A stretch of 39,181 nucleotides of DNA from Lachnospiraceae bacterium A4 (GTDB lineage Bacteria; Bacillota; Clostridia; Lachnospirales; Lachnospiraceae). Below, in pieces: positions 32,822 to 38,985 of the stretch. Both the position numbers and the translations under genes were made by a program. Where the stretch lies: contig KE159549.1 in NCBI GenBank assembly GCA_000403215.2, positions 354,846 through 394,026 of the forward strand. The letters are read 5' to 3'. Under the pieces are notes generated by a model. It made no database searches and was not told the origin of the DNA. It worked only from the letters and a program-made list of their open reading frames with translations. Within the stretch, counting starts at the first letter, position 1; the number at the start of each line of letters is the position of its first letter.

Positions 32822-33580
32822 TTATTTGGCAGGCAGTCCACGCCGCTCGCGAATACCGTTTAGGATGTGCTGCTTCAGCTCTGGAATTTTGGATTTGTCC
32901 ATCTCGGGGACGCCTTCAAGCGGATACTTCATGCCCAGTTCGTCATATTTTTTCCTGCCCATCGTATGATAGGGGAGGACATCGAGCGCTTTGAGGTTTT
33001 TGAGTCCGCCGATAAAATAGCCCAATCGGTGCAGGTCCTCCGGGTTGTCCGTAATGCCGGGCACAACGACATGACGTATCCAGATTTCCACATTTTTGCT
33101 GTCAAGGTATTCTGCAAAGGCGAGGATACCGTCGTTTGGCTGTTTTACCAGCTCTTTGTGCTTTTCCGGGTCAATGTGCTTAATGTCGAGCATCACGAGG
33201 TCCGTTACCTCACAGAGTTTGTCCAGCTTGGCGAGCCATTCGGGATTGCCGTCGGGGCGGTAGGCGATGCCGGAGCTGTCAAGGCAGGTATGAATGCCGC
33301 GCTCGTGTGCCATCGTAAAAAGTTCCAGCAGAAAATCAAGCTGCATCAATGGCTCGCCGCCTGTCACTGTGATGCCGCCGCCCTTGTAGAACGGTTTGTT
33401 GCGCTCATAATTTTCGAGAATCTCCGCAGGCTCCATCAGCGTGCCGGCATTCATCTCCCACGTGTCGGGATTGTGACAATAAGCACATCTCATAGGACAG
33501 CCCTGCACAAAAACCACGTAGCGGACGCCGGGGCCGTCAACAGTTCCAAAAGATTCTAAAGAATGTATTTTTCCTTGCAT
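32822..33580 (-). CDS. pflA: Pyruvate formate-lyase activating enzyme
   Basis: This 252-residue radical-SAM enzyme abstracts a hydrogen from the glycine of pyruvate formate-lyase, making the catalytic glycyl radical. The cluster motif CPMRCAYC (CX3CX2C) is near residues 28-35. VTGGEPLMQ is the SAM-binding glycine-rich segment, and VMLDIKHIDPEKH and the C-terminal LPYHTMGRKKY are family blocks. The frame is open to 33805, but ATG 33580 has AGGAAAGG upstream and gives the normal length. A minus-strand TATAAT at 33623-33628 may be its -10 box, without a clear -35. The substrate genes lie 3 kb upstream on the same strand, separated by + strand genes. Confidence 0.95.
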   Translation of the reverse strand: MQGKIHSLESFGTVDGPGVRYVVFVQGCPMRCAYCHNPDTWEMNAGTLMEPAEILENYERNKPFYKGGGITVTGGEPLMQLDFLLELFTMAHERGIHTCLDSSGIAYRPDGNPEWLAKLDKLCEVTDLVMLDIKHIDPEKHKELVKQPNDGILAFAEYLDSKNVEIWIRHVVVPGITDNPEDLHRLGYFIGGLKNLKALDVLPYHTMGRKKYDELGMKYPLEGVPEMDKSKIPELKQHILNGIRERRGLPAK

Positions 33581-33671
33581 AGTATCAACCTTTCCTGTAT
33601 CATAATAATTTAATCTATTCACATTATACCCTATTTTCGACAAAGGAGATACTGTTTTTTGCAAAAAAAAT

Positions 33672-33699
33672 GGGACACAATCGAAATCCGCTGCGTCTA
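33672..33699 (+). promoter_or_regulatory. Possible ECF-type, self-activated promoter of the sigma factor
   Basis: GGGACA (33672-33677) and CGTCTA (33694-33699) are spaced 16 bases and lie about 50 bases before the sigma gene. A CGTC-type -10 is typical of promoters read by ECF sigma factors, which often transcribe their own genes. No good sigma-A promoter is seen. Confidence 0.42.
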
Positions 33700-33747
33700 A
33701 TGAGTATAAGGAAGGAGGCGGAAGGATGATAGAAACAGGAGAGGAGT

Positions 33748-34314
33748 GTGAGAACAGCCATGAAAAGTTTGGTAAAGCGTGCCCAGAAGGGAGACGCAGA
33801 TGCATTTACACAACTGATGCAGTCCCAGATGCAGAATATGTACAAGACTGCAAGGGCAGTCCTAAAAAATGACGCGGACGCTGCGGATGCCATTGCAGAC
33901 ACGCTTCTGGCGTGCTGGGAGAAAATCGGACAGCTGCGCAGGGCGGAATTTTTCCGCACTTGGATGACGAAAATTCTTATCAATAAATGCAATGATATTC
34001 TGAGAAAAAGGAAGGATTTGTATTTGGACAGCACAGTACAGGAGCTTCCGTCACAGACGCAGGAGTATAGCACCGTCGAATGGATGCAGGTGATGAAGAG
34101 TCTGGATGAAAAGTACCAGTTGATCATGATTTTGTACTATGTGGATGGACTGACTGCAGCGCAGATCAGTGAGGTGCTGCAAATGCCGGCAAGTACGGTG
34201 CGGACGAGACTGGCAAGAGGGCGGCAGCAGATTGCGGAAGCGTACTGCACATCACAACAGTGTAAAAACACGACAGCGCACCTTCAGCAGGAAGGAAACT
34301 GTTTAGAATCGTGA
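33748..34314 (+). CDS. ECF-type RNA polymerase sigma factor
   Basis: This 188-residue sigma-70 family protein has region 2 (about residues 8-80: ADAIADTLLACWEKI, FFRTWMTKILINKCNDILR) and region 4 (about 110-165: DEKYQLIMILYYVDGLTAAQ, ISEVLQMPASTVRTRLARGR), with no region 1 or 3. It directs polymerase to stress or envelope genes. GTG 33748 has AGGAG 6 bases before it; ATG 33760 is an alternative. The downstream membrane protein with DUF4179 is almost certainly its anti-sigma factor. Confidence 0.9.
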   Translation: MRTAMKSLVKRAQKGDADAFTQLMQSQMQNMYKTARAVLKNDADAADAIADTLLACWEKIGQLRRAEFFRTWMTKILINKCNDILRKRKDLYLDSTVQELPSQTQEYSTVEWMQVMKSLDEKYQLIMILYYVDGLTAAQISEVLQMPASTVRTRLARGRQQIAEAYCTSQQCKNTTAHLQQEGNCLES

Positions 34315-34345
34315 CCGGAGGGCGGTCAGAGAATGGAGGCAGAAC

Positions 34346-35503
34346 ATGAAAATAGATAAAACAGATAAAATTAAGGAGACATTACAGATGGAGATTGCGC
34401 TGCCCGCAGTTGTCCAGCAGAGGGCGGATGCCGTGTTTGAACAGATTCAGAGGGAGCACACAGGAAAAGGAGAAAAGATGATGCGAAAAAGCATGTGGGG
34501 AACCGTGGCGGCAGCGATGCTGGCGCTGAGTACAGTGACTGTGTGCGCAGCGGCGTATATGAATTGGAGCAGCGGTATGGAAGAACAATTTGACGCCACA
34601 GATGAGCAGAAAGCATTTCTGGAAGAGCAGGAGATGGTAAAGCCGATGAGCAGCAGCGTGACCAAGGAGGGCGTTACAGTCACAGCGCAGCAGAGCATTG
34701 CGGACAGCCGCTTTGCGCATCTTTCGTTTCGCGTCGAAGGCTATGAGGTGAAGGAGGGGGGCATCTTGCAGCCGGATTTTGAGACGGTGCATGTCACGGT
34801 GGACGGCAAAGAAGGTTTTGTGTTAAAACATGCCTTTTTTAACAACTGGCATATAACAGATGACGAGCGCACGTACACCAACGATGACACGCCGATACAG
34901 GAGCGCAGGGATGGAACGCTGGTGGAGCGCTACAGGAACGCTGACGGCAGTATGGAGTATATTATTACGGTTATGAAGGACTTTGAGGAGCACAGTCTGA
35001 TCGGAAAAGAAGTGCATGTGGAGCTTGAGAATCTGGGGACGCATGTACGGTATTCGAACGCCTACAGAAAGGAGATTGAGGCAGTGTGGAGCTTTGACTT
35101 TACGCTGGATGGCTCCGATCAGGTCAGAAGTGAGCAGATGTCACAGCCATTGGGAGACAGCGGCGCCACAGTGACCCAAGTCGAATTATCGCCCATTTCC
35201 TTCTATGTAGAGTATGAGTATGCGTTACCGTCAATAGAAATGAAAGCAAATCATGGTGTCTGGACGTTTGGAGGAGTGCCGCCGCTCGTTGGCGTTCGTC
35301 TGAAAGATGGCACAATGATTACCGGGGTAATGGGCGGCGCTTCAGAGGGGTATTCGGACAATGCTGGAATCTATGTATATTACGGGACAATCAACCGGAT
35401 TATAGACCCGCAGGAGGTGGATACGCTGTTGTTTAGTAAGTCCTCCCTATATGAGATGGAGGGAACGCGTCCTAAGGAAGAGTATTATTTTGTTCCTTTT
35501 TAG
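34346..35503 (+). CDS. DUF4179-type membrane protein, probable anti-sigma factor
   Basis: This 385-residue protein has a short cytoplasmic N-terminus (about residues 1-46) that could bind the sigma factor, one membrane helix (about 49-72: GTVAAAMLALSTVTVCAAAY) and a large extracytoplasmic beta-rich domain. This is the DUF4179 pattern of Firmicutes ECF-associated proteins. It begins 31 bases after the sigma gene. A signal outside the cell is presumed to release the sigma factor, but its nature is unknown. No clear terminator follows it. Confidence 0.82.
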   Translation: MKIDKTDKIKETLQMEIALPAVVQQRADAVFEQIQREHTGKGEKMMRKSMWGTVAAAMLALSTVTVCAAAYMNWSSGMEEQFDATDEQKAFLEEQEMVKPMSSSVTKEGVTVTAQQSIADSRFAHLSFRVEGYEVKEGGILQPDFETVHVTVDGKEGFVLKHAFFNNWHITDDERTYTNDDTPIQERRDGTLVERYRNADGSMEYIITVMKDFEEHSLIGKEVHVELENLGTHVRYSNAYRKEIEAVWSFDFTLDGSDQVRSEQMSQPLGDSGATVTQVELSPISFYVEYEYALPSIEMKANHGVWTFGGVPPLVGVRLKDGTMITGVMGGASEGYSDNAGIYVYYGTINRIIDPQEVDTLLFSKSSLYEMEGTRPKEEYYFVPF

Positions 35504-35573
35504 GACTTTTATCCAAAATTAAAATGATAAACTGGGTTGAAAATGCATGCTTTTATATAGAGGTATTACAGCA

Positions 35574-35590
35574 TTGTGAATTATACACAA
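35574..35590. promoter_or_regulatory. Palindrome TTGTG-N7-CACAA upstream of the BlaI-type gene
   Basis: The arms TTGTG (35574-35578) and CACAA (35586-35590) are perfect. The whole site differs from the palindrome upstream of pfl (39036-39053) mainly by one inserted base. It may bind the same regulator. Confidence 0.42.
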
Positions 35591-35603
35591 AATCAAGTAA
35601 AAT

Positions 35604-35651
35604 GCAATGTAAATATACTATAAAATTGAATTAAAAATAGCTTTACATTGC
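35604..35651. promoter_or_regulatory. Widely spaced inverted repeat, candidate autoregulatory operator
   Basis: GCAATGTAAA (35604-35613) and TTTACATTGC (35642-35651) are perfect 10-base arms with centres 38 bases apart. The right arm covers the -35 box of the BlaI-type gene. The TGTA/TACA cores recall BlaI/CopY half sites, though their orientation differs from the usual TACA-N2-TGTA. Confidence 0.55.
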
Positions 35652-35670
35652 CGCTAAAAAAAGGTAAAAT
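35642..35670 (+). promoter_or_regulatory. Sigma-A promoter of the BlaI-type gene
   Basis: TTTACA (35642-35647) and TAAAAT (35665-35670) are spaced 17 bases. The -35 box lies within the right arm of the inverted repeat. Confidence 0.62.
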
Positions 35671-35736
35671 AGAAATAGTAGGTAATTGTGGTAGAGCATT
35701 AACATACCGGGTTTTCAATTAATGGAGGAAGATACA

Positions 35737-36126
35737 ATGGATAGTAGGATTCGATGTGAAATGTCTCAGTCTGAGAGTCTGATTATGGAGTACTTGTGGA
35801 AAAATGATGAAGGTAAATGTTTTAGCGAAATTATGGAATATCTGAACGGAGAATTACAGAAGAACTGGAAGAAGCAGACGATCAATACGTTTATCAGACA
35901 TTTGATTGACAAGGGGCTTGTGACAGCGGAGGCAACCCAGAAGAGCAGACGCTATCATGCGGCATTGACACCCGTACAGTTTGCGCGTGGCAAGGCAAAT
36001 AAAATTCTCGCGGACTACTATGGCGGCTCTGTCCAGACCTTTTTGTCAGCCCTTACAGGCGGAAAGCAGCTCAGTAAAGAGCTGGCGGACGAGCTTCAGA
36101 AGATGGTGGAAACTGAAATTGAGTAA
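35737..36126 (+). CDS. BlaI/MecI/CopY-family transcriptional repressor, orphan
   Basis: This 129-residue protein has an N-terminal winged helix (about residues 9-75: SESLIMEYLWKNDEGKCFSE, then KKQTINTFIRHLIDKGLVTAE and RRYHAALT) and a C-terminal dimerisation helix region. This is the Penicillinase_R family. Classical members are cut by a BlaR1/MecR1 sensor protease encoded next door, but here none is present, so it may respond differently. ATG 35737 has GGAGG 9 bases before it. It stands alone between the ECF locus and a terminator and is convergent with the pfl operon. Confidence 0.88.
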   Translation: MDSRIRCEMSQSESLIMEYLWKNDEGKCFSEIMEYLNGELQKNWKKQTINTFIRHLIDKGLVTAEATQKSRRYHAALTPVQFARGKANKILADYYGGSVQTFLSALTGGKQLSKELADELQKMVETEIE

Positions 36127-36194: not shown

Positions 36195-36224
36195 TAAAAA
36201 AAGGAGGAAACAACGTTCCCTCCT
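36195..36224 (-). terminator. Rho-independent terminator of the pfl operon
   Basis: Read on the minus strand, AGGAGGGAAC (36215-36224) pairs with GTTTCCTCCT (36202-36211), with one G-T pair and a 3-base loop, followed by a run of T (36196-36202). It lies 13 bases after the glycyl-radical gene. Confidence 0.85.
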
Positions 36225-36236
36225 ATCTGCTTCAGA

Positions 36237-36482
36237 TTAGATTGCCTCGTGGAATGTACGAGAGATAACATCTGCCTGCTGCTCTGGTGTCAGCTTAATG
36301 AAGTTTACAGCATATCCAGATACGCGGATTGTCAACTGAGGATAATTCTCAGGATGCTTCTGCGCATCTAACAGTGTGTCTCTGTTCAATACGTTTACGT
36401 TGAGGTGATGACCACCCTTTGTTGCATAACCATCTAATAAAGAAACTAAGTTATCAACCTGTGCTGCATTATCTACTGCCAT
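36237..36482 (-). CDS. Stand-alone glycyl-radical domain of pyruvate formate-lyase (GrcA-like)
   Basis: This 81-residue protein is the C-terminal domain of pyruvate formate-lyase encoded as its own gene. It carries [31 protein letters not shown] with the radical-bearing Gly56, and the tail [14 protein letters not shown], all near-identical in pattern to the end of one-chain PflB and to GrcA/YfiD. AGGAGG stands 9 bases before the ATG, so it is translated independently and well. The large subunit in this operon lacks exactly this domain, so this protein is probably an obligatory subunit, not a repair part. It should be the substrate of PflA and must insert its glycine loop next to Cys406/Cys407 of the large subunit. 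It is the last gene before the terminator. Confidence 0.95.
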
Positions 36483-36513
36483 AGTTCTATACCTCCTAAA
36501 AATTCATTATCAA

Positions 36514-36717
36514 TCACTCATGATCCAATCCTTCGTGAAGTGTCGGAACACTGCACGCCATCGGATTGCTGGAACAGTCTGTACATCCAAGAGTCTGGAC
36601 TTCTTTCGTAGAAGCGTCCTCGCTGACATCTACATTGAAATGTCCGACAGCCTTCTCACCGGAGAATCCGGCATCAAGCTGGGATACAAGGTCGTCAATC
36701 ATTGATTTCTCATCCAT
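36514..36717 (-). CDS. Cysteine-rich small protein with a glycyl-radical-domain-like N-terminus
   Basis: This 67-residue protein lies between the two pfl genes. Its first half (IDDLVSQLDAGFSG, then GHFNVDV) aligns by eye with the start of the 81-residue glycyl-radical protein ([14 protein letters not shown], then HHLNVNV). The radical loop is absent and is replaced by a tail with Cys45, Cys48 and Cys55 (CTDCSSNPMAC) plus His61 and His66. The tail may bind a metal or act in redox control. I know no name for it. ATG 36717 is preferred because GAGGA lies about 12 bases upstream; ATG 36729 almost touches that site. The next gene starts 31 bases after its stop. Confidence 0.75.
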   Translation of the reverse strand: MDEKSMIDDLVSQLDAGFSGEKAVGHFNVDVSEDASTKEVQTLGCTDCSSNPMACSVPTLHEGLDHE

Positions 36718-36742
36718 AGATACACCCATTCCTCTCTATGAT

Positions 36743-36776
36743 CTGGCAGCTACAGGCAAATTCCTGCGGCTGCCAG
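36743..36776 (-). repeat. Hairpin between the large and small pfl genes
   Basis: CTGGCAGC (36743-36750) pairs with GCTGCCAG (36769-36776), and an inner CAGG/CCTG stem adds four more pairs. No T-tract follows, so it is more likely an RNA processing or stability element than a terminator. It could adjust the ratio of large subunit to the small proteins. Confidence 0.6.
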
Positions 36777-36818
36777 TGTATTTGGCTAAAATTAGCTAAG
36801 ATTCGTTAAAAAATAGGA

Positions 36819-38858
36819 TTAATTATTCAGGTCAAGCTCGATATCGCCAGAGAATACCTTTGCTTCCTTGCCAAGAGCGTTCGGAATGATTGTAAAGGTA
36901 TTGGAGATACCATCCTGTGCATCCTTGAACGGAAGTTTTGATACAGAGGACAGAGAAGCTACTGCACCATTTGTATCACGTCCGTGCATTGGGTTTGCAC
37001 CCGGAGCAAACGGCTGTCCCTTCTTACGTCCGTCAGGTGTGTTACCTGTAGCCTTACCATAAGTTACATTTGATGTAATTGTAAGGATTGAAGTTGTAGG
37101 AACACCATTTCTGTAGGTATGATGTCTTCTGATTGCAGTCATGAACTTGTGTACAACATCCTGTGCGATTAAGTCTACGCGGTCATCGTCATTACCATAT
37201 TTAGGGAACTCGCCAGTTGTCTCGAAGTCAACGATGATGCCGTCCTCGTCACGGATTGCCTTTACCTGTGCATACTTGATCGCTGATAAAGAGTCGGCAA
37301 CGATAGAAAGTCCAGCAACACCTGTAGCGAAGTATCTCTTCACGTCTCTGTCATGAAGAGCCATCTCTGCTCTCTCATAGCAGTACTTGTCATGCATATA
37401 GTGAATGATATTGAGTGTATTTACATACACGTCTGCCTGCCACTCAAGCATATCCATGAATTTGCTGTATACATCATCGTAATTGAGGATATCACCCTCA
37501 ACAGGACGATACTTCGGTCCAACCTGTTTCTTGGTAACTTCGTCCACACCACCATTTAAAGCGTAGAGCAAGCACTTTGCAACGTTTGCACGAGCGCCGA
37601 AGAACTGCATTTCCTTACCGATTACCATAGAAGATACGCAGCAAGCGATACCGTAGTCATCGCCGTGTGTCACTCTCATCAGGTCGTCGTTCTCATACTG
37701 GATGGAAGAAGTCTGGATAGACATCTTTGCACAGTATCTCTTCCAGTTCTCAGGAAGTCTTGTAGACCAAAGTACTGTCAGGTTTGGCTCTGGGCTGGGT
37801 CCGAGGTTTGTCAGTGTGTTCAGGTAACGGAAGGACATCTTTGTAACGAGAGGACGTCCGTCAACGCCAACACCGCCGAGAGACTCTGTTACCCATACAG
37901 GATCGCCAGCGAAGATCTGGTTGTATTCTGGTGTACGTGCAAATTTGATCAGACGAAGCTTCATGATGAAGTGGTCAACGAACTCCTGAATCTGCTCCTC
38001 TGTAAATGTTCCGTTCTTTAAGTCTCTCTGTGCATAGCAGTCAAGGAAAGTAGAGGTACGTCCAAGGGACATTGCAGCGCCATTCTGCTCCTTAACAGCA
38101 CATAAATATCCGAAGTATGTAGCCTGGATTGCTTCCTGTACGTTTGTAGCCGGCTTAGAGATATCGCAGCCATAAGAAGCAGCCATTTCCTTCATCAGCT
38201 TGAGCGCTACCATCTGCTCGGAAAGCTCTTCGCGGAGACGGATTACGTCATCTGTCATCACGCGTCCTGTGGAATCCTTCTGAGCCTGCTTATCCTCGAT
38301 CAGTCTGTCGATACCATAGAGCGCAACTCTTCTGTAGTCGCCGATGATACGTCCGCGTCCGTAAGCATCAGGAAGACCTGTGATGATGTGTGAAGAACGG
38401 CATGCTCTCATCTCCTGATTGTAAGCGTCAAAACATCCTGCGTTGTGTGTCTTTCTGTGTGTAGAGAAGAACTCACTAACCTCAGGGTCTACTTCGTAGC
38501 CGTTGTCTGAGCAAGCTTTCTCTGCCATTCTGATACCGCCGTATGGCTGCAATGAACGCTTGAAAGGCTTGTCGGTCTGGAATCCAACGATGGTCTCCTT
38601 GCTCTTGTCGAGGTATCCCGGACCATGAGAAGTGATCGTGGAGATTACTTTTGTGTCCATATCAAGAACACCGCCTGCTTCTCTCTCCTTCTTCTGAAGA
38701 TCAAGAACCATGTCCCATAAATCCTTTGTGTTCTGTGTAGGTCCTGCTAAGAAAGACTCATCTCCGTCGTATGGTGCGAAGTTCTTCTGGATGAAGTCAC
38801 GCACGTTGATTTCGCTTTCCCATTTTCCACCTACAAAATCTTTCCATTCTGGTCTCAT
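36819..38858 (-). CDS. pflB: Pyruvate formate-lyase large subunit lacking the glycyl-radical domain
   Basis: This 679-residue cytoplasmic enzyme subunit belongs to the reaction that turns pyruvate and CoA into acetyl-CoA and formate. The full barrel is present: [55 protein letters not shown], the catalytic pair Cys406-Cys407 in [10 protein letters not shown], and [20 protein letters not shown]. It ends at [20 protein letters not shown] plus a few residues, where ordinary PflB continues into the glycine loop. The stop TAA is followed by two more in-frame stops, so readthrough is unlikely. Large plus small protein equals 760 residues, the length of E. coli PflB. AGGAGG lies 9 bases before the ATG. 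Confidence 0.96.
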
Positions 38859-38955: not shown

Positions 38956-38985
38956 ATTATATCCTCAATTTTGTATACACGTCAA
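38956..38985 (-). promoter_or_regulatory. Strong sigma-A promoter of the pfl operon
   Basis: On the minus strand TTGACG (38980-38985) and a perfect TATAAT (38956-38961) are spaced 18 bases. The leader is about 90 bases. The remaining sequence to the window end (38986-39181) has no gene that I can support; it contains a palindrome and a long hairpin, listed separately. Confidence 0.8.

Follow-up and report, generated by a model that had tools for sequence, protein, structure and literature searches.

How can a pyruvate formate-lyase (PFL) function when the chain that carries its catalytic cysteines ends before its radical glycine, and what is the task of a further gene that lies between the two parts? 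These questions are raised by a locus in a stretch of 39,181 nucleotides of contig KE159549.1 of Lachnospiraceae bacterium A4, the whole of which is called the window here. Three genes on its reverse strand encode a truncated PFL large subunit of 679 residues (tPFL; 36819..38858), a protein of 71 residues (MID; 36514..36729, or 67 residues if the start is at 36717) and a glycyl-radical subunit of 81 residues (GrcA3; 36237..36482). In many anaerobes PFL has a central place in pyruvate metabolism, and oxygen destroys it at its glycine radical. The reading argued for below, which we regard as probable, is that of an obligately split PFL, composed of tPFL and GrcA3, which keeps a cysteine-bearing element for the subunit gap.

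The 679-residue protein passed the NCBIfam PFL equivalog model TIGR01255 (1090 bits, cut-off 994.2), with a match to profile positions 2-665 of 744. The glycine-radical loop is absent from this chain and is encoded by the second gene, the 81-residue product of which matched positions 662-743 of the same profile and passed the NF038360 model, named 'GrcA3' (160.8, cut-off 158). A first-pass annotation, made from the sequence of the locus alone, had proposed a genuine split PFL with a separate glycyl-radical subunit, and these matches bear it out. It had also placed the catalytic cysteine pair at residues 406/407 of the large protein and a ribosome binding site before the small gene, and both were found: C406/C407 (codons 37638..37643 of the reverse strand, from the open reading frame (ORF)) aligned with C419/C420 of Escherichia coli PflB (Met counted), and AGGAGG precedes the small gene as well as the large one. 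The Cys-Cys pair was kept in all 76 of the split sequences collected from the family. The 76 split sequences have no third cysteine directly before the pair, in the column of tPFL residue 405, whereas of 9 distant one-chain PFLs (that of E. coli among them) two thirds do.

The identity to E. coli PflB was 423 of 679 aligned positions for tPFL and 48 of 81 for GrcA3. tPFL leaves the alignment after approximately residue 677 of E. coli PflB, directly before NLAGLMDGY, and GrcA3 begins at this very place (NLVSLLDGY). The last 15 or so residues of tPFL, a short acidic tail without cysteine, have no E. coli counterpart. The sum of 760 residues noted in the first annotation does equal the length of E. 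coli PflB with its Met, but given this tail the agreement is partly a coincidence. Likewise, the in-frame stops between the two genes number nine, including that of tPFL itself, and not three, although the conclusion drawn from them, that neither an error nor a simple nonsense mutation is involved, holds. Judged from its sequence, PFL is a permanently divided enzyme in this bacterium. The active enzyme would be tPFL plus GrcA3, with the radical predicted on Gly56 within the RVSGYAV motif of GrcA3 (codon 36315..36317, reverse strand, located by alignment and ORF coordinates).

The genome of the host (6.96 Mb in 40 contigs, 97.65% complete) was searched for a full-length pflB elsewhere, a check that the first annotation had suggested. 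A PF02901 search gave a single match, that of the window, and no hidden full-length PFL was found. A PF01228 search returned the two pieces of the window, a second GrcA3 on contig 11 and a weak match in a 726-residue frame on another contig (C1), which was taken for a putative anaerobic ribonucleotide reductase. Upstream of the second, stand-alone GrcA3 (79 residues; L231:3017-3253 (-)) are a gene for a Crp-type regulator and groEL, and a groES-like ORF was recognised there by eye. Among seven unlinked GrcA3 copies examined, three had a Crp-type regulator gene nearby; one of the seven is probably a cassette repeat at a contig end. The position of the second GrcA3 gene beside a Crp-type regulator gene is consistent with the idea of a subunit swap and is no test of it.

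The same split was sought in other Lachnospiraceae, again as the first annotation had suggested. PFL was present in 158 of 200 genomes sampled from the family (E <= 1e-60), and 90 PFL loci were taken from 88 of these genomes, 76 of them split and 14 one-chain. With four further genomes in which the cassette lies at a contig end, the split was found in at least 80 of the 158 PFL-positive genomes; among the matches listed, the remaining PFL frames were mostly of about 750 residues or more. For the class, 291 genomes were sampled, of which 154 had PFL, and 13 short-frame loci were taken from among the matches listed, 12 of them from other families. All 13 had a separate GrcA3-like gene, so that the split extends beyond the Lachnospiraceae to other families of Clostridia.

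A quick protein tree built from the 90 PFL cores placed every one of the 76 split loci in one group of 82 sequences (SH-aLRT 91) together with six one-chain PFLs (L097, and L087, L093, L100, L101 and L103), while eight more distant one-chain PFLs lay outside it. When the distant sequences are included, the well-supported branches force at least two changes between the split and the one-chain state. It is possible that the six inner one-chain PFLs were re-fused. Two re-fusions were not established for them, as a tree holding all 14 one-chain sequences together was not rejected (p-AU 0.415). Three genomes contained both types of PFL: G119 (L092, L121), G132 (L060, L122) and G452 (L219 plus a frame of 750 residues), and G085 probably does so too (L107 plus a frame of 754 residues). 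At one further locus (L218:295-2421 (+)) a single stop codon divides the large subunit into two ORFs.

The gene between the two subunits had been used in the first annotation merely as an argument against error, and its two-part reading, sound as to the split, was incomplete in this respect. MID is a conserved paralogue of the glycyl-radical domain with a cysteine tail. Its homology to the first half of that domain was detected with hhalign (96.8%, E 3e-10, 36 columns); by homology, it comprises the starting helix and strand of the domain. Where the glycine loop would come next, it has a tail with GCTDCSSNPMACSVPTL; GCTDCSRTPLACSVPTL is an example of such a tail. The GrcA3 model was matched weakly, at E <= 1, by 30 of 33 MIDs (best 8.6e-07); the MIDs lack the RVSGYAV glycine loop and their scores were not near the NF038360 cut-off. 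In an alignment of 33 MIDs, D15, G25, H26, C48, A54, C55 and P58 were invariant, and among the 14 MIDs outside this alignment two end before the last cysteine and one has Arg in place of the His. At least two cysteines were present in the last 45 residues of all 47 MIDs of the family loci, with three in 29 and only two in 17.

A single query detected MID in 52 of the 200 family genomes, and 480 relatives came from a scan of GTDB contigs. Among the best 80 of these, 77 were flanked by tPFL and GrcA3, with a contig end cutting off the remaining three; the named relatives were nearly all Lachnospiraceae. In a phylum sample MID was present in two of 299 genomes, both from the family of the window, and the class-wide loci showed it in three other families. 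Between MID of the window and its nearest relative, the nonsynonymous rate (dN) was 0.062 and the synonymous rate (dS) 0.98. The median dN/dS among ten near relatives was 0.155 for MID (16 usable of 45 pairs), compared with 0.061 for tPFL and 0.067 for GrcA3. MID is therefore under selection, less strictly than its two neighbours. One locus of the class-wide sample (L217:2840-3034 (+)) had the gene order tPFL-GrcA3-MID rather than tPFL-MID-GrcA3.

Split enzymes with MID (group A) were compared with split PFLs that have no adjacent MID (group B). The median length of the tPFL tail was 33 residues in group B and 15 in group A, and the approximately 18 extra residues hold cysteines, as in CKDLACNIPNIEDSIDNE and CGDMACKVPTLHKGIDDDD. 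A typical cysteine segment, whether on the tPFL tail or on MID, was C-x(0-8)-(A)C-x-(I/V)P-(T/N)-L. Of the 76 family loci, 47 had MID and no cysteine tail, 27 a cysteine tail and no MID, two neither of them nearby, and none had both. When the 29 genomes without an adjacent MID were searched entirely with a MID profile, a MID elsewhere was found in exactly the two that also lack the cysteine tail: in G002 on C64 (L238), and in G130 on C51 (L244:1742-1984 (+)), where an ORF of 80 residues contains CENSPVPMACGVPT. No distant MID was detected by this search in the 27 genomes with a cysteine tail. Besides GrcA3, its further matches were a tPFL tail (G092), a degenerate copy (G002) and a frame with internal stops (G057). 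One or the other form of the element was therefore present in 76 of 76 family loci or their genomes. MID seems to work in trans, because distant MIDs occur in just the two genomes that have neither an adjacent MID nor a cysteine tail. The degenerate copy of G002, a MID-like ORF of 69 residues with the tail RCDV...LCDI, lies at L245:1396-1605 (+).

The 13 loci outside the family sample comprised five with MID (after GrcA3 in L217), six with a cysteine tail and two with neither. For all 89 split loci, MID was adjacent in 52, a cysteine tail was present in 33, MID lay elsewhere in the genome in two, neither was found in two, and the two forms never occurred together. A profile of the MID tail scored at least 5 bits against 19 of the 29 group B tails, as opposed to three of 580 shuffled sequences, none of the 47 group A tails and none of the 14 one-chain PFLs. 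A cysteine pair at the tail position was absent from 13 of the 14 one-chain PFLs. On the tree, approximately nine changes were needed for MID and approximately eight for the tail, and where two paired sequences differed in MID, their tails never differed in the same direction. Two cysteines of tPFL, C142 and C274, occurred only in MID-bearing enzymes (in 36% and 43% of 47, respectively) and in none of the group B or one-chain sequences; it is possible that they are contacts for MID.

Several observations weigh against this picture and are gathered here. Two of the 89 loci (L219 and L220) had neither a cysteine tail nor, in a whole-genome profile search, a MID; the genome of L219 also has a PFL frame of 750 residues, and the split PFL of L220 (G390), which is 66% identical to that of the window, possibly arose independently. 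Ten of the 29 group B tails scored under 5 bits with the MID-tail profile, eight of them having at least two cysteines in another pattern (e.g. CACCEP), and the tail of L216, outside the family sample, has only CC. The one-chain PFL L097 keeps a cysteine motif (CGCEEVTC). Only four independent pairs on well-supported branches were available for a test of the alternation of MID and tail (p 0.25). As a candidate disulphide partner, no cysteine was found that is present in more than 90% of the split sequences and absent from the six nearest one-chain PFLs. BLASTP gave no alignment of MID with GrcA3, and the MID of the window itself had no NCBIfam match at E <= 1.

Two AlphaFold2 models were made for L050, the tPFL of which is 89% identical to that of the window, with the stops read as glycine so that neighbouring proteins were joined, and with shallow alignments. 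One-chain PFLs were left out of the folding alignment, because their alignment with the MID region would have biased the outcome from the start. The mean predicted local confidence (pLDDT) was low, at 64.5 and 66.1, the latter for the three-piece model. This low-confidence model of tPFL, MID and GrcA3 superposed on E. coli PFL over 854 columns with a template modelling (TM) score of 0.83 of the target and a root-mean-square deviation (rmsd) of 5.4, and with GrcA3 present the strand before the split was formed. As far as such a model can indicate, it fits with GrcA3 completing the barrel. The model of tPFL and MID, by contrast, was not PFL-like (662 columns, TM 0.39, rmsd 23.8), and in both models MID had a pLDDT mostly below 50 and was not seated in the slot. 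Weak as they are, the models give no support for MID as a structural stand-in of GrcA3 and cannot decide the matter.

The division of the enzyme, its conservation, the third element and the complementarity of MID and tail can be read from sequence comparison, and the mechanism proposed from them goes a step further. tPFL would give the barrel and the Cys406/Cys407 pair, while GrcA3 would give the last strand of the barrel and the glycine loop, in which PflA would install the radical. The active site would then be open whenever GrcA3 is off, and it is proposed that split PFLs keep a cysteine element for this reason. The element, as MID or as tail, would serve the empty or exchanging state. It would dock at the GrcA3 slot or close by, and until a fresh GrcA3 is seated its thiols would shield the exposed cysteines of the active site or reduce them again. 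After cleavage by oxygen at the radical glycine, only the 81-residue subunit would need to be replaced. The thiol chemistry assigned to the element, namely shielding or re-reduction, is put forward tentatively, and recruitment of GrcA3 is a close rival that is nearly as likely.

In a study of E. coli PFL (PMC8683613), the enzyme cut at residue 695 was as active as the wild type once it had been activated with YfiD, but binding of YfiD was undetectable and activation was 32-fold lower than for PFL cut at 733. A split PFL can therefore work and may need help. By analogy, a stretch for recognition would be missing from the natural split PFL, which may need a substitute; MID, as part of that region plus cysteines, may provide it. 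A more elaborate reading, to which we give perhaps one chance in several, holds that one domain has given rise to two alternating subunits: GrcA3 with its glycine loop as the radical form, and MID or the tail of tPFL with a cysteine loop as the thiol form. The thiol form would fill the vacant slot, keep the cysteines reduced or quench stray radicals, and be displaced by fresh GrcA3, which would amount to an oxygen-tolerant standby state. In the parts searched of the open-licence literature, no such state was found described for any glycyl radical enzyme.

If the element serves instead as a recruitment module, it would replace residues 696-733 of E. coli PFL, which are needed for YfiD binding, and bring GrcA3 (or PflA) to tPFL. 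The effects of the cut at 695 speak for this possibility, as does the fact that the natural tPFL is cut even earlier, at about E. coli residue 677, with MID homologous to part of the region that is missing. Recruitment alone, however, leaves unexplained why at least two cysteines persist in a tail that is otherwise variable, and the group B tails appear by eye to lack any helix/strand half; we consider it a serious but somewhat doubtful explanation. A metal or Fe-S cluster site, on the model of benzylsuccinate synthase with its small accessory subunits, is rather improbable. There is a glycyl radical enzyme with small accessory subunits of the [4Fe-4S] type, and three cysteines are present at the end of 29 of the 47 MIDs, but the 17 MIDs with only two cysteines argue against such a site, and the spacing of 0 to 8 residues between cysteines among MIDs and tails is unlike that of a fixed one. 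Moreover, there was no match to solved chains (PDB sequences, best E 0.41) or to small-subunit families in Pfam and NCBIfam.

A third explanation, that tPFL and GrcA3 alone matter and MID is a GrcA3 duplicate, neutral or in decay, appears improbable to a slightly greater degree. It would agree with the origin of MID as a GrcA3 paralogue without the glycine loop, and with a dN/dS above that of the neighbouring genes. Purifying selection nevertheless persists on MID, its relatives in genome contigs number 480, and its tail recurs in the tPFL tails yet never accompanies one; in genomes that lack both at the locus, it turns up at a distance. A pflB broken by frameshift or nonsense mutation beside an ordinary spare-part GrcA gene is by far the least credible explanation. 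The large ORF does lack an essential domain, and GrcA-like spare parts do exist, but nine in-frame stops and a conserved gene lie between the two pieces, the split recurs in at least 80 family genomes, dN/dS is low for all three genes among ten near relatives, and the host genome has no intact pflB. By the recurrence in relatives, the low dN/dS and the nine stops, a sequencing error or pseudogene was ruled out. The obligately split PFL with a cysteine element is the reading that is retained.

At the locus, a promoter-like site (TTGACG-18-TATAAT, 11 of 12 matches; 38956..38985, reverse strand) lies approximately 100 bp upstream of tPFL, and a terminator-like hairpin of 10 pairs followed by TTTTTT (36202..36224, reverse strand) comes directly after GrcA3. 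Such promoter-like sites numbered 5, compared with 6.0 expected in shuffled sequences, and the hairpins 3, compared with 1.9, so that in each case the position alone counts. Because of this upstream site and this hairpin, tPFL, MID and GrcA3 look like one transcription unit, as far as the sequence can tell. Their arrangement exceeds chance because it recurs in many genomes.

The gene for the PFL-activating radical S-adenosylmethionine enzyme, pflA, was identified at 32822..33580 on the reverse strand (TIGR02493, 297.1 bits, cut-off 231.75). These coordinates are those of the domain part of an ORF at 32822-33805, with the start inferred from the beginning of the family match. Three genes of the forward strand (33748-36126), for a sigma factor of the extracytoplasmic function type, a DUF4179 protein and a BlaI-type (Penicillinase_R) repressor, separate pflA from GrcA3. 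They may represent an insertion into the pfl region, because a pflA-like gene sits inside the near flank examined in 56 of 80 related loci.

If the reading is right, an idea known from E. coli as a spare part would become the normal PFL architecture of a major gut family, and exchange of the fragile radical part alone would in principle be feasible. The enzyme would offer a natural two-chain system for the measurement of radical transfer between subunits and of subunit exchange, and it raises the question of what job a cysteine element does that a one-chain PFL does not need. Annotation that demands the glycine loop in a single chain may miscall PFL in these bacteria.

Among known systems, a short C-terminal C-x4-C tail is found in E. 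coli NrdA, a class Ia ribonucleotide reductase (...DDGCESGACKI), and resembles CKDLACNIP and CGDMACKVP on tPFL. In class I ribonucleotide reductase the active site is served by a C-terminal dithiol arm, and by analogy the cysteine element may reduce an active-site disulphide in the same way; this is a likeness of form only, no homology is claimed, and turnover of PFL requires no net reduction. The beta and gamma subunits of benzylsuccinate synthase are also small, cysteine-bearing partners of a glycyl radical enzyme, but they have no sequence match with MID in PDB sequences, Pfam or NCBIfam, and MID derives from the glycyl-radical domain itself. With GrcA/YfiD (TIGR04365) and phage Y06I, GrcA3 shares an autonomous glycyl-radical domain that acts on PFL from a separate chain. 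GrcA/YfiD serves a PFL that had a loop of its own (PMC8683613), whereas tPFL never has one. The 81-residue protein was under the TIGR04365 cut-off (99.7 of 170), and the spare-part role, in which a loop-bearing PFL is repaired, does not suit a host genome without such a PFL.

GrcA3 is a family already named by NCBI, and its model, which the window protein passes, names the small protein alone. Among the titles and beginnings of abstracts listed in searches of the open-licence literature, with subscription journals mostly outside this range, no naturally split PFL, no GrcA3 by name and no MID were found. The GrcA3 family name and the spare-part GrcA/YfiD are thus already known, and the third part, the MID or cysteine element, is believed to be new. 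With E. coli PflB (TIGR01255) the enzyme described here has in common the barrel, the Cys-Cys pair, the sequence of the glycine loop and the same kind of activase. The difference is that E. coli has these in one chain, while here they are divided between two, with the cut near E. coli residue 677.

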